32,813 nt of DNA from a virus. This document shows, piece by piece, positions 12,426 to 32,813 of the stretch (position 1 is its first letter; every line of letters begins with the position of its first letter). Location: the IMG/VR virus record IMGVR_UViG_3300045911_000135, positions 1 through 32,813 of that record, one strand, 5' to 3'. The notes under the pieces are model-generated. The model had not been told where the DNA came from. It worked only from the letters and a program-made list of their open reading frames with translations, and did not search any database. Made by a program: the position numbers and the translations under genes.

Positions 12426-13451
12426 ATGGATAAGACTTTACCAATATTTGATATCGTACTTAATGATAATGACCTAAGTCAAGGTGTAGCTATGATATCA
12501 TTAGTTGATGAGCCAGCAATAGGAGTTGACTGGATAAAATTATCAAAACACTTAAAATTAGAATTCTCAGCTGATAAGGATAAACAAATGTTGTATGGAC
12601 CATTTCTGATTCCTAATATGTTAATTTATAGAAGGAATGAAGAACTTGGTGAGTTTTATATTAGGTTTTCTAAAGAAGAGATTGCTAAGATAGCTTCTAA
12701 GTTCAATAGTGACTTAAATAATAACAACATTAACTTCATGCATACCGATAAAAGAGTTGAGGCTTTTGTAGCTGAAAACTGGATAATTGAAGGTGAATCG
12801 GATAAGTCAAAAAATTTTGGATTTGACCTTCCAGAGGGAACTTGGTTTGGTGGAGTAAAGATTAAAGATACTAAATTCTGGACAGAAATGGTAAAAACTG
12901 AGGAGGTTAAGGGCTTTTCAGTTGAAATATTAGCTGATTCACAACTTGCCCTAAAAAATATAAAAAATAAAATGGAAAAAGAAATTAAACTAACAGAGGG
13001 AAGTATTGATCTTGCGGATGCGGATAATAAAGAAAAACCAGCTGATGATCCTAATGAACTAACAGCTGATCCTACTGATACAACCCCATCATTAACAGCT
13101 CAAGAAGTGTCACTAATGATTGATGCGAGATTTGCTGAGTTGATGAATGAAATAACAACTCTTAAAAATGCATCATTAACAGCTCAAGAAGTGTCACTAA
13201 TGATTGATGCGAGATTTGCTGAGTTGATGAATGAAATAACATCTCTTAAAAATGATTTATCTAATAGTACTTCAAAAGAAGAGGAATACAAAAAAGAGAT
13301 TGAAACATTGAAGTCACAAGTTGTTGCTGTTGAAGAGAAATTATCAACAACGCCAGCAGCTGCTTCTATTAAGAAGCCACACCCAGTCAAATATATCTCT
13401 GATTTTGAGAAGCAAGTTGAGAGAATCAAAATGTTCAAAGAGGGTAGATAA
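12426..13451 (+). CDS. Prohead protease (XkdF / S78-like) fused to a scaffold-like coiled coil
   Basis: 341 residues. Residues 1-170 follow the XkdF-type head maturation protease pattern: MLYGPFLIPNMLIYRR (55-70), HTDKRVEAFVAENWIIEGE with His106 as the likely catalytic histidine, LPEGTWFGGVKI (135-146), and VKGFSVE with Ser165 as the likely nucleophile. From about residue 180 the chain is acidic and then coiled-coil, with an internal 28-residue duplication (222-277). It ends in a basic segment (KKPHPVKY...KQVERIKMFKEGR) of the kind that binds the capsid protein. Fusion or in-frame linkage of protease and scaffold directly before the capsid gene is a known arrangement. The protease should process the prohead and remove the scaffold; roles are inferred by family. 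Confidence 0.85.
   Translation: MDKTLPIFDIVLNDNDLSQGVAMISLVDEPAIGVDWIKLSKHLKLEFSADKDKQMLYGPFLIPNMLIYRRNEELGEFYIRFSKEEIAKIASKFNSDLNNNNINFMHTDKRVEAFVAENWIIEGESDKSKNFGFDLPEGTWFGGVKIKDTKFWTEMVKTEEVKGFSVEILADSQLALKNIKNKMEKEIKLTEGSIDLADADNKEKPADDPNELTADPTDTTPSLTAQEVSLMIDARFAELMNEITTLKNASLTAQEVSLMIDARFAELMNEITSLKNDLSNSTSKEEEYKKEIETLKSQVVAVEEKLSTTPAAASIKKPHPVKYISDFEKQVERIKMFKEGR
13089..13256 (+). repeat. 84-bp tandem duplication inside the protease-scaffold gene
   Basis: 13089-13172 and 13173-13256 are adjacent in-frame copies of 84 bp (28 codons, SLTAQEVSLMIDARFAELMN...). They differ only at the A/T in ATAACAACT versus ATAACATCT and in the last codon. Such near identity indicates a recent event that lengthens the coiled coil by four heptads. 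Confidence 0.95.
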
Positions 13452-22352: not shown

Positions 22353-22372
22353 ATAATATAATTTCTTAGATA

Positions 22373-22472
22373 AGGAGTGGTAAAATTTTCTAATGTGTGA
22401 TTGCCTATGAATTCTTACCGTATCACTCCTGAATTAAAAAAATCCACTAACTTAATTGTTAGGGGATTTTTT
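22373..22472 (+). ncRNA. Structured RNA 1 with its own terminator
   Basis: AGGAGTG (22373-22379) pairs perfectly with CACTCCT (22424-22430), and GTAA (22380-22383) with TTAC (22415-22418) inside. A terminator follows at once: a stem AAAATCC/ACTAAC with GTTAGG/GGATTTT at 22436-22472 and a T run. It could be a small phage RNA or the structured 3' end of the 21978 transcript. Too short inside for a tRNA. Confidence 0.4.
22436..22472. terminator. Terminator, possibly bidirectional
   Basis: CTAAC (22447-22451) pairs with GTTAG (22458-22462), extended by A/T-rich arms ending in an A run on the left and a T run on the right. It lies between convergent genes and can act on both strands. Confidence 0.75.
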
Positions 22473-22484
22473 AAAAAAAACATT

Positions 22485-22563
22485 CCAGTAGTGAATTGAA
22501 GAGTTACTTCGAATTTCATAGTTAAGTGAATCCTATAAAACACTCTTTGATGGATTACTCTGG
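22485..22563 (+). ncRNA. Structured RNA 2
   Basis: Nested pairing: CCAG/CTGG (22485-22488 with 22560-22563), TAGT with ATTA next to it, then TTGAAGAGT (22496-22504) with ACTCTTTGA (22542-22550) including G-U pairs, and an inner TTCA/TGAA hairpin. It is followed by a second terminator at 22569-22609. No open frame of note. Function unknown. Confidence 0.35.
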
Positions 22564-22568
22564 TATAT

Positions 22569-22609
22569 AAAAGATCAGATTAAACAGAAATGTTAGTCTG
22601 GTCTTTTTT
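22569..22609. terminator. Second terminator between convergent genes
   Basis: AAAAGATCAGATTAA (22569-22583) pairs with TTAGTCTGGTCTTTT (22593-22607) using G-U pairs on the plus strand, then a T run. It lies 11 bases from the end of the minus-strand methyltransferase gene, so it may end transcription from both sides. Confidence 0.75.
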
Positions 22610-22619
22610 ATTTTACATT

Positions 22620-25057: not shown

Positions 25058-27283
25058 TCAGTATATATTTTCTGACCTATATATTACTTTTGTATTAGTG
25101 ATTGTTGTTGGGTTACTAATTGTTCCTTTATATTTTAATGGATACTTTCTTATTGATTTACCTCCTACTGTAACAACCGTTGTTGATACTTTGAATATTG
25201 ATTTTAATTTATTAGCTATATGTCTATTCGACATATTGAATTGTTTATGTGTTAGTTGAAAATCCGTAACTATACAAGATCTAATTTCATCTAGTGAAAT
25301 TGTTGGTTTTTCCACTACCTCAAAATTATCCTGTAAATAATCTTCTACATCATTTTTATATCTATATTCATCCGCGTGTTTTAGTAGTTCCTCTCTTGTT
25401 ATATCTGAATCGAGTATTGGATCTTTTCCTGAACACCACTCATTGTAGATAAATCCCCATATACTATCCCAATCAAGATTATATATCTCTCTATCTATTT
25501 TTTTTATATCACATACAAGAAATCTTCTACCTCCTGTATCATCATTAAATACATCATCTGAATTTGTTAAGCCTATAAATGATGATATTCTTTTAAAGTT
25601 ATCCCAAGTCTTAGAATATGGCAATCTAAGTTGTACATGAGGTGTAGATGTAGCTTTTTTAACCGCTTCTATTTCAGATCTCCTAGCCATTGATAACTCA
25701 TCATCTACAACAAACATATAAGATGATAATAACTTTTTATTATCCTTTCCTTGATCCTTATAATCAAATGATGTTGTTGTAAATTCACTGAATGGTTTTG
25801 TTAAAGCATTTGATACAAACCAACTCTTACCAATCATTTGTTCTCCTTTTAATATAATTATCTCATCATAATAAGTTCCATATTCACCAAATAAATTCTT
25901 CATTGCTCCTAACATCCATCGATAGAATATTTTAGCAGTCATTTTATTATCTTTTGTATGTATATGATCGAATATACTATCAAAAAATGATCTATTAGAT
26001 GTCTTTACTCTATCTAACTTTTCCCTAATAAAGTTTCTATAAGTGATCATATCTTTTGTGAAGAGATATTCTTCTAAAGTTCTCTTATCTAAAGAAAGAT
26101 AAGAATCCCTAAAGTCTTTAAGAAGTTGGTTCATTTCAATATCATCTAACCTTACTAAATCATCACCTTTTTGAATATAGTATTGTTTTGAAACCTCTTC
26201 TAAAACCAAGTTATACTTCATATGTTTACTAAATATTTCTGGTATATCAGATGGTACCCATTTAAACGAAGTATAGACATTATTTTTATCATTAAAACCA
26301 TATTTCGTTTCCATTAGTCTATAGAACCATTTAATCCCTAACTTATTTGGGTCATAACCAGTCTTAACTATTTCTTTCCATTTTTCTTCTACCTCTTTTT
26401 CATTATATTTAGAAGATAATTTCGAAAAATTATGAAACATTTGTCCAGCTACAGTAGGATTATTTATGTATCCATATAACAAAAAACCTAAGTTTAACCA
26501 CTCATTATAATCATCAAATGCTACAATTCCAGATGATGTTAAATGTTCTAAAGATTTTGTAAATAAAAGCGATGATGTAGCTGATGGTTTTGATTTTGAT
26601 TTAGTCAATGACTTCGATGATGATGATGGTTTGAATTTACTCCATAACTCCACAACTGAACAATCTTCATTATAATAAACATCTGATCCAATAGGTAAAA
26701 AACAAGCTCTATTTATATTCCTACATTTTACATCTATTTGAAGATTATAGGTTTTAAGAAAATACTCTTGTAGATGATCAAATGCAAACTTCTCAACAAA
26801 CTCTATAAGGTCTTCCTGTTTTAATTCTCCATCAGGTATATCTAATTGTACTATAGCCTTTATACCCTTTGATGGACTCTTAAACATAAAAAGTATAAAT
26901 GGATCATTTTCTAATTTACCCCAACTATGACTTGTTACATCATCAAAATCTAATGTTATTAAGCCGTTATATTCAGTGACCTTAGACTTTGTAGATTTTC
27001 CTTCTATATTTACATTATAAACGCAAGGAAGACCAAGCTTTAATTCATCAATTTTATCCTTTAAAGCCAATTTTGATACCTCATCTGTTGACTTTTTATA
27101 TAAACTATATAAGTTTCTTATATCATCTGTTCTCTTTTTTAGCGGATCTTTATTAACAGATAACCCTATTCCTGCGGAAATATAGCCTTTTATTTTCTCC
27201 AAATCAATATTTTTTCCCAATTTTTGTTTAATATTTCCTAAAAACAACAATTTTTTTTGATTCTTTATCGTTATAGTTTTCAT
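25058..27283 (-). CDS. Primase-helicase (BT4734-like / VirE family)
   Basis: 741 residues with three parts. Residues about 80-215 are an archaeo-eukaryotic-type primase domain: LITLDFDDV (108-116) holds the metal-binding acids, and KSPSKGIKAIVQLD and NRACFLPIGSDVYYNED follow. Residues about 245-325 resemble the PriCT-2 helical domain (DYNEWLNLGFLLYGY...KWKEIVKTGYDP). Residues about 440-600 are a VirE-type ATPase: Walker A GEQMIGKSW (480-488), Walker B YMFVVDDE (522-529), and GLTNSDDVFNDDTGGRRFLV (571-590), a family signature. The C-terminus ends in a small basic winged-helix-like region. It should prime and unwind at the phage origin. It is the largest early gene; the AT-rich region just upstream (27284-27568) is a candidate origin. 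Confidence 0.9.
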   Translation of the reverse strand: MKTITIKNQKKLLFLGNIKQKLGKNIDLEKIKGYISAGIGLSVNKDPLKKRTDDIRNLYSLYKKSTDEVSKLALKDKIDELKLGLPCVYNVNIEGKSTKSKVTEYNGLITLDFDDVTSHSWGKLENDPFILFMFKSPSKGIKAIVQLDIPDGELKQEDLIEFVEKFAFDHLQEYFLKTYNLQIDVKCRNINRACFLPIGSDVYYNEDCSVVELWSKFKPSSSSKSLTKSKSKPSATSSLLFTKSLEHLTSSGIVAFDDYNEWLNLGFLLYGYINNPTVAGQMFHNFSKLSSKYNEKEVEEKWKEIVKTGYDPNKLGIKWFYRLMETKYGFNDKNNVYTSFKWVPSDIPEIFSKHMKYNLVLEEVSKQYYIQKGDDLVRLDDIEMNQLLKDFRDSYLSLDKRTLEEYLFTKDMITYRNFIREKLDRVKTSNRSFFDSIFDHIHTKDNKMTAKIFYRWMLGAMKNLFGEYGTYYDEIIILKGEQMIGKSWFVSNALTKPFSEFTTTSFDYKDQGKDNKKLLSSYMFVVDDELSMARRSEIEAVKKATSTPHVQLRLPYSKTWDNFKRISSFIGLTNSDDVFNDDTGGRRFLVCDIKKIDREIYNLDWDSIWGFIYNEWCSGKDPILDSDITREELLKHADEYRYKNDVEDYLQDNFEVVEKPTISLDEIRSCIVTDFQLTHKQFNMSNRHIANKLKSIFKVSTTVVTVGGKSIRKYPLKYKGTISNPTTITNTKVIYRSENIY

Positions 27284-27568
27284 AAATAATTCAATTTTTT
27301 ATTTTTTTTACCTCATAACCATGATATGATATAATGTAAAAAAGTTTAAAAAAAATTAAAAATGATAGATTTTGAATTCTGTGTGGTAATTTGTAATTTT
27401 AAAACCCTTTTATATCCTTTCCTTTACCAAATTACTTACTTACTTATATATATATATGTATATAGGTATTATTTATTTAAAATTATTTAAAATATTTAAA
27501 AAATATTTTTTAAAAATATATATATTTATAGGGAACACATAATGTCATTGACTAAGTAGTAATTTGGA
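27284..27568. other. AT-rich gene-free region, candidate replication origin and promoter of the primase gene
   Basis: Almost pure A/T. It contains ATGATAT repeats near 27320, a (TA)n stretch near 27447-27460, and a perfect 20-base palindrome at 27495-27514 (TTTAAAAAAT/ATTTTTTAAA). There is no credible open frame. Location directly upstream of the primase-helicase gene and beside the structured repeats fits an origin, but no initiator binding sites were recognised. Confidence 0.4.
27495..27514. repeat. 20-bp perfect palindrome
   Basis: TTTAAAAAAT followed by ATTTTTTAAA, symmetrical over all 20 bases, within the AT-rich region before the primase-helicase gene. Confidence 0.7.
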
Positions 27569-27679
27569 AAAAATCATTTTTAGAGGTTTAGGGAAACGAT
27601 CTCGCCTCGATTGATAGTTAGTATCGACCGAAGGTGTTTTAATCAATCCTGGTTAAAATGGTGAAGCCTGGGAGTGTAA
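27569..27679 (+). ncRNA. Structured RNA repeat, copy A
   Basis: 111 bp identical to copy B. Predicted plus-strand folding: CGCC (27603-27606) with GGTG (27633-27636), TCGAT (27607-27611) with ATCGA (27623-27627) holding the loop around GATAGTTAGT, and TTTTAA (27637-27642) with TTAAAA (27653-27658) holding TCAATCCTGG. A 3' block AATGGTGAAG then CCTGGGAGTGTAA is shared with the diverged copy D. G-U pairs in the stems favour the plus strand as the RNA strand. No protein is encoded consistently by the copies. Confidence 0.6.
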
Positions 27680-27760
27680 AAATTATTTTTCGAGCTTTAG
27701 GGAAACGATCTCGCCTCAACTGATGATTTCTCCCCACCGCTAAAAGAGGTGGGGTTCTTG
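27678..27760 (+). ncRNA. Hybrid copy C: shared 5' part, different hairpin
   Basis: The first 40 bases (27678-27717) match copy A at 37 positions (TTTAGGGAAACGATCTCGCC and flanks). After CTC the sequence departs and forms a strong hairpin: CCCCACC (27732-27738) with GGTGGGG (27748-27754), loop GCTAAAAGA. The conserved 3' half is missing. Copy B begins immediately after, so C sits as a spacer between two exact copies. Confidence 0.5.
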
Positions 27761-27871
27761 AAAAATCATTTTTAGAGGTTTAGGGAAACGATCTCGCCTC
27801 GATTGATAGTTAGTATCGACCGAAGGTGTTTTAATCAATCCTGGTTAAAATGGTGAAGCCTGGGAGTGTAA
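27761..27871 (+). ncRNA. Structured RNA repeat, copy B
   Basis: Identical over 111 bp to copy A, offset by 192 bp. Its 3' end lies 8 bases from the stop of the small minus-strand gene at 27880. Exact identity next to a diverged copy (D) points to recent duplication or active homogenisation. Confidence 0.6.
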
Positions 27872-27879
27872 TTGGATAT

Positions 27880-28191
27880 CTAATTTTCATTTAAAATTAA
27901 AAATCCATAATTATCATCATTTTGGCGCTTTCCTAATTTAATCAAATCGTTAATAAATAGTATATTCATAAACATAATTCCTTCACTCAATTCATAGGTA
28001 CCCTTTCTATTATAATCATCAAGACATTTCGCTTCTAATTGATCGAGATATACAATAGCATCGTTTATATCTGAATCAGATTTGAGTAGCATTTCAGACA
28101 TTGCTTTGATTAGATTTTCCGATAAATCTAACTCAGCTACCACTGTACCTTTCCAGAATCCTTGAATTTTTATTTTTTTCATTTTTTTCAT
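27880..28191 (-). CDS. Small early protein, function unknown
   Basis: 103 residues. The start is MKKMKKIKIQGFWKGTVVAELD (second Met at residue 4 also possible), followed by a helical part (SENLIKAMSEMLLKSDSDIN) and FINDLIKLGKRQNDDNYGF. No cysteine pair, membrane segment or known motif. It has the only clear host-type promoter in the window (TTG-N20-TATCTTTG), so it is probably expressed first after infection. It is enclosed by copies of the structured RNA repeat on both sides. A host-takeover or counter-defence protein is plausible but unproven. It ends in TAG. Confidence 0.55.
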   Translation of the reverse strand: MKKMKKIKIQGFWKGTVVAELDLSENLIKAMSEMLLKSDSDINDAIVYLDQLEAKCLDDYNRKGTYELSEGIMFMNILFINDLIKLGKRQNDDNYGFLILNEN

Positions 28192-28213
28192 TTTTTCTTC
28201 GTTTTTAACTATA

Positions 28214-28244
28214 CAAAGATAATATTAATTTTCCAATTCACCAA
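28214..28244 (-). promoter_or_regulatory. Bacteroidota housekeeping-type promoter
   Basis: On the minus strand TTG (28244-28242), 20 bases, then TATCTTTG (28221-28214), matching the Bacteroidota -33 TTG / -7 TAnnTTTG consensus. It lies about 23 bases above the start of the small gene at 28191. Confidence 0.7.
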
Positions 28245-28261
28245 TTTTTTTTTCTCAAAAA

Positions 28262-28376
28262 ATAAAAAACTATTTTTTAGACGTTTTAAAAGGAGATCTC
28301 GCTATTGGTCGATAGATAGTATGGCTTGAACGGTTTAAATCAATCCTGGCTAAAATGGTGAAGTCTGGGAGAGTAA
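28262..28376 (+). ncRNA. Structured RNA repeat, diverged copy D
   Basis: Shares the 39-base 3' block with copies A and B at 36 positions (28338-28376) and GATCTCGC (28295-28302). The loop GATAGATAGTAT sits on stem GGTC (28307-28310) with GGCT (28323-28326), whose bases differ from the A/B stem yet still pair. The second hairpin TTTA/TAAA with loop around ATCAATCCTGG is kept. It lies about 100 bases upstream of the small terminase gene, and upstream of the promoter of the minus-strand gene. Confidence 0.6.
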
Positions 28377-28473: not shown

Positions 28474-28911
28474 ATGAAAGCAAAATTTCAAAAAAAGGAT
28501 ATAATAGCAGCTCTTGTAAAGATGAGATTGGTTGAATGTGCTTCTACTAAAACCTTAATGGATTTCCTTGGAAATCAATTAGGATACTCAAAAACAACAT
28601 CATATGAATATCTTAAACTGATGAGAGAATCAATTAAGGACCAATACTCATTGTTAAATCCATCAATGATAGAAGAAGCTATCGGTCAATATGAAGAAGC
28701 TATAGAAATGGCAAGACAAAGAAAAGATTGGAAACTTTGGAACGATTTAAGAAGAGAATTAAATAAAATACAAGGTGTATATGCTACAGAGAAGATTGAT
28801 ATAACAACTAATGGTAAAGATCTACAAATAACAGAAATAACTGTTAATATACAATATAATGATATGAGAACTATTGGAACACAAAGTCGAGAAAATAATA
28901 GAATAGAATAG
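28474..28911 (+). CDS. terS: Terminase small subunit
   Basis: 145 residues. The N-terminal half is a helix-turn-helix-like segment (TKTLMDFLGNQLGYSKTTSY) followed by helices (EEAIGQYEEAIEMARQRKDW, LWNDLRRELNKIQGVY). The phrase 'L..el.kiqG.y..ekidIt..G' is typical of small terminases of Bacteroidota phages. It should bind the packaging site and recruit the large subunit. It ends in TAG two bases before the remnant of the large-subunit start. The repeat copy D upstream could be part of a packaging site, which is inference. Confidence 0.75.
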   Translation: MKAKFQKKDIIAALVKMRLVECASTKTLMDFLGNQLGYSKTTSYEYLKLMRESIKDQYSLLNPSMIEEAIGQYEEAIEMARQRKDWKLWNDLRRELNKIQGVYATEKIDITTNGKDLQITEITVNIQYNDMRTIGTQSRENNRIE

Positions 28912-28912
28912 A

Positions 28913-29035
28913 ATGAGTAAAAGAGTTAAACTCCTACAAGAGTTATAGAAAATTTATGAAGAAGAAGTGAAATTAAACATACAAGGTTCATATAATTTAG
29001 ATCAACTTATTAAATCAGATAAGAGACTCAACTAA
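28913..29035 (+). pseudogene. Orphan first copy of the large terminase N-terminus
   Basis: From ATG at 28913 the frame reads MSKRVKLLQEL, then TAG (28946-28948), then KIYEEE and VKLNIQGSYNLDQLIKSDKR up to a TAA at 29033-29035. A GTG at 28967 begins the part that corresponds to the second copy at 29249, which has MKLNITGSYNLDQLLKSSKR. Over 66 bases the two copies are only about two-thirds identical, with many silent changes, so this is not a fresh duplication. The copy ends at the ATG of the endonuclease remnant (TAA-ATG). It looks like the original 5' end of the large terminase gene cut off by endonuclease insertion. Confidence 0.7.
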
Positions 29036-29245
29036 ATGAATACAATAGAATATAAAGATATGGAGATATGGAAAGAAATACCAGGATACTCAAGATACCA
29101 AGCATCTAATCTTGGTAGAATTAGGTCTATGAATTATAAGGGGAGAAAACAATTAGCCGAGAAGTATGGTGTATCACAATACACTATTAAAGAACTCGTT
29201 ACTAATAGAAAAAATAGAAAAAATTCGTGGGAGCATGTCCGCTAA
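29036..29245 (+). CDS. Homing endonuclease remnant (NUMOD4 plus helix-turn-helix, no HNH core)
   Basis: 69 residues. EIWKEIPGYSRYQASNLG then RIRSMNYKG (about residues 10-37) is a textbook NUMOD4 domain. It is followed almost directly by KQLAEKYGVSQYTIKELVTN, a NUMOD1-like DNA-binding helix-turn-helix. Full-length relatives carry an HNH nuclease of roughly 50-100 residues between these parts; it is missing, so an internal in-frame deletion is likely. It lies between two copies of the large terminase N-terminus. The product may still bind DNA but should not cut. Confidence 0.75.
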   Translation: MNTIEYKDMEIWKEIPGYSRYQASNLGRIRSMNYKGRKQLAEKYGVSQYTIKELVTNRKNRKNSWEHVR

Positions 29246-29248
29246 CAT

Positions 29249-30453
29249 ATGAAACTAAACATTACAGGATCATATAACTTGGACCAACTACTAAAAAGTA
29301 GTAAAAGGTTCACTTTATTAGTGGGCGGCTCCCGCTCGCGGCAGGAAAGACGTATGCTATACTACAATGGATAATTATATACTCTTTAAAGAATACCAGT
29401 AAAACAATCACAATAGCTCGTAAAACATTCCCAGCACTTAGAGCTGGAGCTTATCGCGAATTTATACAATTATTAAAAGATTTAGAGATTTATAGAGAAG
29501 AAAATCATAATAAAACAAATAACACCTATACACTAAAAAATAACCTAATACAATTCATATCAATCGATCAATCTATTAAGTTAAGAGGTCTTAAACACGA
29601 TGTAGTATTTGTAGATGAGGTGAATGAATTGAATAAAGAAGAGTTTGATCAATTAGTTATGAGAACAAATGAGAAGATTATAATGGCTCAAAACCCTTCT
29701 GATGCTTTACACTTCTCATTAACATATCAAAATCACCCAGAATGTACTTATATACACTCAACCTATAAAGACAATCCCTTCTTATCAAGAGGTATTATTA
29801 ATCAAATAGAGAGTTATAAAAACACTGATGAAGATATGTGGAATGTTTATGGTTTGGGACTTCCAGCTAAGAATAATGAATTAGTTTATACACACGCTCA
29901 ATTCTATAATGATGAAGAACTTTATGTAAAAGATGCTGATGGTAAAGATATACCAATCTATAATGAGATTATATATGGTTTAGACTTTGGATTCAATCAC
30001 CCTACCGCATTAGTTAAAGTATATATGTGTGATGAAGCAATTTATTGTGAAGAGATTATACACGAGAGTTATTTAACAACTAGTGATTTAATACAGAAGA
30101 TGAAATCACTTAATATACCTACTGATAAAAAAATATACTGTGATTCAGCCGAACCTAAAACAATCGAAGAAATAAAGAGGGCAGGTTTTGATGCCGTCTT
30201 GTCACTTAAAGAAGTCAAAGAAGGTATAGACTGTATTAAATCATTTAAGTTCTATATAAACAATAACTCTACTAAATTGATTAGTGAGTTAAGAAAGTAT
30301 AAGTGGAAGATGAAGAACGGACAAAAAACAGATGAACCTATTAGATTATTCGATGATGGCTTATGCGCAATAAGATATGCTGTATATACATATACACAAA
30401 AGACAAAACGTAGTAATGATTATGATTTTGATGTAGAAATAATTGATTTGTAA
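29249..30453 (+). CDS. terL: Terminase large subunit, interrupted by a 5-base insertion in Walker A
   Basis: From ATG at 29249 the chain reads MKLNITGSYNLDQLLKSSKR, then LLVGGSRS, and leaves frame. Five bases (CGGCA, about 29339-29343) separate TCG from GGA-AAG-ACG, after which GKTYAILQWIIIYSLKN continues from 29344 in another frame to 30453. Joined, it is about 400 residues, normal for TerL. The ATPase has Walker B VVFVDEVNEL (about 29605-29634) and AQNPSD; the RNase H-like nuclease has GLDFGFNHPTAL, YCDSAEP and LFDDGLCAIRY with the three metal-binding Asp. Either the gene is broken in this consensus, or the frame is restored by recoding, or the assembly merged variants. Confidence 0.8.
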
Positions 30454-31977: not shown

Positions 31978-32813
31978 ATGGCACAAAAGAAGGTTGGTTT
32001 TAGTAATACCAGTTACATACAAGGTGATAAGCTTATAATTAATAATGGAGAGACGGCTTCTATAAGTCTCTCGTTTATTGGAGCTACCGCTCTATCATTT
32101 CGACTACCAGAAGCTGATGGAGCTGCTGGATGGTCACTTATAACTGATGGAGCTGGTAATTTATCATTTGGAACATCAGGCGGTGGAAATGGAAACATTA
32201 ACGGTTCTGGAGCTACACCTTATCTTGCCTTATGGACTGGAACACAATCATTAGGTCAATCAAGTTTAAGAGAATCTAATTATCAATTACAATTTCCATC
32301 AGGAACAGTTAATACCCCTTCTATCACATTCATTAATGACACAGATACAGGTATATACAGAAGCGGAGCTAATAATCTTAGTATATCAGCTGATGGTGTA
32401 GAGGTAGCTTCGTTTAAGAAAGATGTTTTTTATGTTAAATCCACATCTGGTGATCAAATCTATATGTCATCTTTATCAGGTATAACAATATTTGGTCAAT
32501 CAGGTGGTATAGAATTAACTGGATCAGTCAGTATAACAAGTTTATCACCCGGTGATTACCTCTATGTTAATTCAAATGGTTATATAGTCGGTTCAACCGT
32601 ATCTTTTGGAGCCACCGGAGCTACAGGTCCACAAGGTCCAGCAGGAGATACAGGTGCTACAGGAGCTACAGGACCTCAGGGTCCAGCAGGACCTCAGGGT
32701 CCAGCAGGACCTCAGGGTCCTCAGGGTCCAATTGGAGCCACCGGAGCTACAGGTCCACAAGGTCCAGCAGGAGATACAGGTGCTACAGGAGCTACAGGAC
32801 CTCAGGGTCCAGC
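31978..32813 (+). CDS. Collagen-repeat tail fibre, N-terminal part (continues at the left end)
   Basis: Begins with ATG at 31978 ([20 protein letters not shown]) and stays open to the window end. A beta-rich N-terminal region is followed by the fibre motif [20 protein letters not shown], then a stretch ending [17 protein letters not shown], and from about 32611 Gly-X-Y triplets encoded by the same 108-bp repeat as at the left end. Removing the 127-base overlap joins it in frame with 1-1256 for about 654 residues. The shared fibre motif on both sides of the collagen shaft supports a single gene. Confidence 0.85.
32612..32813 (+). repeat. Collagen-coding repeat, right-end part, including terminal repeat copy 2
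   Basis: Same repeat family as at 1-300. Bases 32687-32813 equal bases 1-127. One extra CCAGCAGGACCTCAGGGT unit around 32700 shows that the array varies in small multiples of 9 or 18 bases as well as in the 108-bp period. Confidence 0.85.

Follow-up and report, generated by a model that had tools for sequence, protein, structure and literature searches.

A noncoding unit of about 110 bases is present in four related copies at the point where the early and late genes of a phage diverge, between a gene for a VapE-like primase-helicase and the putative small terminase gene (TerS) (Table 1). The window analysed comprises the complete IMG/VR record (32,813 bases, 32% GC), and the phage that carries it is of Bacteroidota type. 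Structural genes are located on the plus strand, and the leftward block opens with the primase-helicase at 27283, for which no close relative was found in IMG/VR. The first gene of the rightward block was assigned as the small terminase because of its position before the large terminase gene (TerL) and its 61% identity to the same gene of contig L005; a TerL search in GTDB genomes gave no match. The AT-rich stretch that follows the primase gene is a possible promoter, unwinding region or both.

Table 1. Positions of the features at the early/late junction of the window and of the structured RNA in terminase-related phages.
Feature	Position	Strand	Remarks
VapE-like primase-helicase	25058..27283	-	BT4734-like N-terminal domain, PriCT_2, VapE; start of leftward block
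AT-rich stretch	27284..27530		Between primase gene and copy A
Copy A	27569..27679	+	111 bp
Outer stem P1 of A (candidate), 5' side	27575..27583	+	Pairs with 27668-27676
Copy C	27678..27760	+	27678-27724 similar to first 47 bp of A, then unrelated hairpin
Copy B	27761..27871	+	Identical to A over 111 bp
ORF, 103 aa	27880..28191	-	Between B and D; no family match
Bacteroidota-type promoter-like site	28214-28244	-	Same strand as the 103-aa ORF
Copy D	28262/28266-28376	+	Diverged relative of A
Putative TerS gene	28474..28911	+	Start of rightward block; no family match
Structured RNA, ca. 370-450 nt	L008:3130-3573, L010:4480-4930, L009:1900-2269	+	No Rfam match

Other parts of the record show further peculiarities. 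At the Walker A motif (29252-29400) the large terminase gene does not stay in frame, with VGGSRS and AAGKTYAI in different frames and about 5 nt extra as compared to its relatives (GGSRSGKT), either through a sequencing error or through a real disruption. At 28968-29245 the beginning of this gene occurs a second time (KLNIQGSYNLDQLIKSDKRLN, then a stop), ahead of a short ORF of NUMOD4/HNH type, an arrangement that looks like the insertion of a homing-endonuclease cassette. Both record ends (1-300 and 32500-32813) carry collagen-like Gly-X-Y repeats, which suggests a contig break within a single repeat gene.

Sequence comparison confirmed that A and B are identical over their full length, as described in the original prediction, and that D is a diverged relative (77% identity to A with gaps, E about 1e-17). 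A partial copy between A and B, absent from that prediction, was detected as well: in C, 47 bp match A at 89% identity (E about 4e-13), the 3' half of the unit is missing, and an unrelated CCCCACC...GGTGGGG hairpin takes its place. By these alignments the copies are real and not due to chance. The near-invariant 3' block also held up, with 36 of 40 A/D columns identical by the bounds used here (36/39 as counted earlier). The box GAUCUCGC is invariant, and the 8-mer GATCTCGC occurs in each of the four copies but at no other place in the window. No ORF of at least 60 aa runs over the copies, in line with the predicted lack of a shared reading frame; short frames starting with ATGGTGAAG were considered as coding and rejected because their residues change between the copies. 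ARAGORN gave no tRNA or tmRNA match in the copies. The Rfam comparison proposed earlier yielded no family: Rfam 15 gave 0 matches at gathering score and chance-level matches alone at E values up to 10. Searches of IMG/VR and GTDB genomes with the 3' block, as exact and as gapped patterns, retrieved no homologue, the matches being coding or chance, and blastn against phage records returned low-complexity matches only. The same holds for antisense targets of the copies within the phage genome, where none was found beyond low-complexity matches. Copy C contains a hammerhead-like CUGAUGA, but this candidate was dropped because its closing stem is unpaired.

An identical pair (A/B), a truncated copy (C) and a diverged copy (D) could also result from neutral duplication, in which one noncoding element was recently copied and the copies decay without a function of their own. 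The genome holds another recent tandem duplication, of 84 bp with 93% identity, at 13074-13241 inside a coding gene. However, the 3' block of D has been kept at the level given above while other parts of the unit diverged, and the 8-mer is unchanged in four copies. We consider neutral duplication improbable.

Phages with related TerL proteins (65-71% identity) were obtained from IMG/VR (L006-L010 and, in part, L012). These harbor a noncoding region of ca. 400-600 nt between the early block and TerS; the more distant relative L005/L011 (46% TerL identity) has no such gap before TerS. Few early genes of the neighbouring relatives belong to a known family. In L008, L010 and L009 the region contains a long structured RNA with 83 consensus pairs, 10 of which are doubly compensated, a number reached in 0 of 500 shuffles and compared to 0-2 in slid controls. 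Its consensus fold has a z score of -4.9 on the plus strand and -2.8 on the minus strand. The slots of L006, L007 and L012 are filled with other sequences, and that of L012 folds significantly (z -4.2) whereas those of L006 and L007 do not. L007 and L008 share 74 identical bases (L007:3541-3614 and L008:3090-3163), comprising a promoter-like sequence and the leader AACGGCAATCAAAAGCAATC, after which their noncoding sequences are wholly different; judged from this pattern, the slot in these two phages is a mosaic RNA locus.

The array of the window is located where the relatives carry the long RNA, at the early/late junction before TerS. Similar to the long RNA of L008, L009 and L010, the window units are noncoding, GC-richer than their surroundings and placed on the same strand. 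Whereas the relatives possess a single RNA of about 450 nt with strong covariation, the window has repeated 111-nt units with no similarity to it in sequence or by covariance model. Neither blastn nor the covariance model detected the window repeats in the TerL relatives, the long RNA gave no blastn or cmsearch match to the window units, and the relatives' leader motif CAATCAAAAGCAA has no match in the window with 0-1 mismatch allowed. The link between the array and the relatives' RNA is therefore positional only.

Two further noncoding elements were observed in these genomes. A small RNA-like terminator hairpin occurs at L007:6556, L008:6791, L010:5288 and L012:5015, with an invariant loop containing GAAUUGCCGUU and stems that differ. 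The loop is complementary (antisense) to ACGGCAAT, which lies in the leader of a divergent ORF (L007:2852, L008:2401, L010:3744) and in the long-RNA leader (L007:3586, L008:3135), these being nearly the sole such sites in their loci. The other element is the noncoding stretch 22353-22619 of the window, which has 13 of the 14 bases of TTTCTAATGTGTGA in common with L010:5257 and L012:4976. It shows the strongest fold among the window stretches tested (z -4.6 on the plus strand), with several stable hairpins and T-rich tails.

The claim that the copies conserve an RNA shape through compensatory changes is not supported by these copies alone. According to the original prediction, the stem TCGAT/ATCGA of A had become GGTC/GGCT in D with pairing retained. 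In register, D retains 3 of the 5 pairs of this stem with 0 double changes; its GGTC/GGCT stem occupies different, non-homologous column pairs and is therefore not a case of covariation. The 3' hairpin of A (UUUUAAUCA/UGGUUAAAA) has 2 of its 10 pairs broken in D, by one-sided changes. The only helix with a doubly compensated pair in D is the candidate outer stem P1, of which 8 out of 9 pairs are kept, one being compensated (A-U to U-A). With just two full-length distinct sequences in the A/D alignment, one doubly changed pair is reached in 238 of 500 shuffles. Likewise proposed were two alternative shapes, with a CGCC strand pairing to either of two GGTG segments. This idea is limited to A and B because in D pairing of the strand with the far GGTG is complete (5/5) but that with the near GGTG drops to 2/4.

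Folding of single sequences gave z scores of -1.85 on the plus and -0.66 on the minus strand for A (ranges over two runs -1.85 to -2.1 and -0.66 to -0.24) and of 0.12 and 1.42 for D, which folds no better than shuffles; the whole A-C-B block scored -1.55 and -1.37. The plus-strand consensus fold of A and D has a z score of -0.9 to -1.1, with 73-94 of 500 shuffles as good, and the test is weak with two sequences. For calibration, 113-column windows of the real structured RNA of the relatives were used, with z scores that lay mostly near -2 (range +1.2 to -6.9); terminase coding sequence gave about 0. With this spread, two sequences neither prove nor exclude a conserved fold. A covariance model of A and D, a search suggested in the original prediction and run here on the window and the relatives' contigs, recovered only A, B and D plus one weak match in the L012 contig (17 bits, E 0.04) that was taken as chance.

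Strand composition gives a different type of evidence. With GC skew calculated per gene in the plus-strand reading, each of the 11 minus-strand genes has a value of -0.20 or below, and 20 of the 21 plus-strand genes are positive. The skew is +0.30 for A, +0.35 for D and 0.0 for C, and -0.34 for the minus-strand gene flanked by B and D. The resemblance of A and D to plus-strand genes counts in favour of a plus-strand RNA, as does the structured plus-strand RNA in the relatives' slot. The array reaches about 40% GC (A 39%, D 35%), compared to 14% in the adjacent AT-rich stretch. The predicted functional RNA is thus favoured by the plus-type skew, the modest plus-strand folding of A and the RNA in the relatives' slot, whereas the stems broken in D, the fold of D and the A/D consensus speak against it. 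The copies are probably read as RNA on the plus strand. That a single noncoding plus-strand RNA module at the early/late junction was duplicated, in tandem or nearly so, to give A, C, B and D is the best, though tentative, reading, to which we assign slightly less than an even chance.

A role in the control of replication, also considered in the original prediction, would act at the DNA level: the long direct repeats, the AT-rich unwinding stretch and the primase-helicase gene would form a replication region bound by the primase-helicase, in the style of P4 crr/ori or of a satellite-island origin. The layout strikingly resembles that of P4 crr, in which two direct repeats, each of 120 bp and 180 bp apart, adjoin a primase-helicase gene; in the window two 111-bp repeats are 192 bp apart and the VapE gene starts about 290 bp away, with the 14% GC stretch in between. 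The terminase relatives, which do not carry VapE, are also devoid of the window repeats, so that the array may still be part of the replication module. However, in the most specific test of this idea, an iteron scan found 5 internal sites in each P4 crr unit (positive control, 0/60 shuffles) whereas A, C and D were at shuffle level, and conservation covers the whole unit rather than short boxes. The P4 and window primases show no BLASTP similarity, and four Bacteroides phages with VapE-like genes have no such long intergenic repeats beside them. With the P4-like layout in place but internal iterons absent, the replication-region explanation is weakened and appears rather unlikely.

A packaging site (cos/pac) or an operator in the DNA, with repeated boxes to which TerS or a regulator binds, would fit with the position of D, 98 bp ahead of the start codon of TerS, and with the restriction of GATCTCGC to the four copies. 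On the other hand, D alone adjoins TerS, as A-C-B lies beyond a minus-strand gene, the relatives have no equivalent repeats upstream of TerS, and a plus-type GC skew is not expected of a DNA site. The probability of such a site is low in our estimate. For the packaging function put forward in the original prediction, nothing was found beyond adjacency, and in the relatives the RNA slot and TerS are parted by minus-strand genes. Phi29-type packaging RNA is a small structured RNA encoded in the phage genome. To our knowledge, Phi29-type phages have no TerS/TerL pair, whereas the window phage does possess one, and Rfam gave no pRNA match.

If the copies are indeed duplicates of one plus-strand RNA module, A-C-B would be contained in one transcript of about 350 nt starting near 27530, just past the AT-rich stretch, and D would be part of the 5' leader of the terminase transcript. 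A surface that binds a phage or host factor may be provided by the GAUCUCGC box, which is invariant, together with the shared 3' block UCAAUCCUGGYUAAAAUGGUGAAGYCUGGGAG, with D acting in cis on the late leader and A and B in trans as competing copies. A terminator-like site was not found. RNA anti-CRISPRs are solitary repeat units (PMC10651486), and the window similarly has repeat-like noncoding units in a phage genome. Compared to these, the window unit is longer (111 bp) and occurs in several copies.

On a wider scale, the early/late junction of this lineage might be a dedicated noncoding-RNA locus where structured RNAs unrelated in sequence replace each other, the window units being another occupant; we regard this as doubtful. 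Taken alone, the window is of smaller value, as it offers duplicated noncoding units that belong to no known family and show a clear strand signal. Should the slot prove to be a dedicated and fast-turning RNA locus, it would be a compact system for studying how regulatory or host-facing RNAs are exchanged in phages with the promoter and flanking genes left in place.
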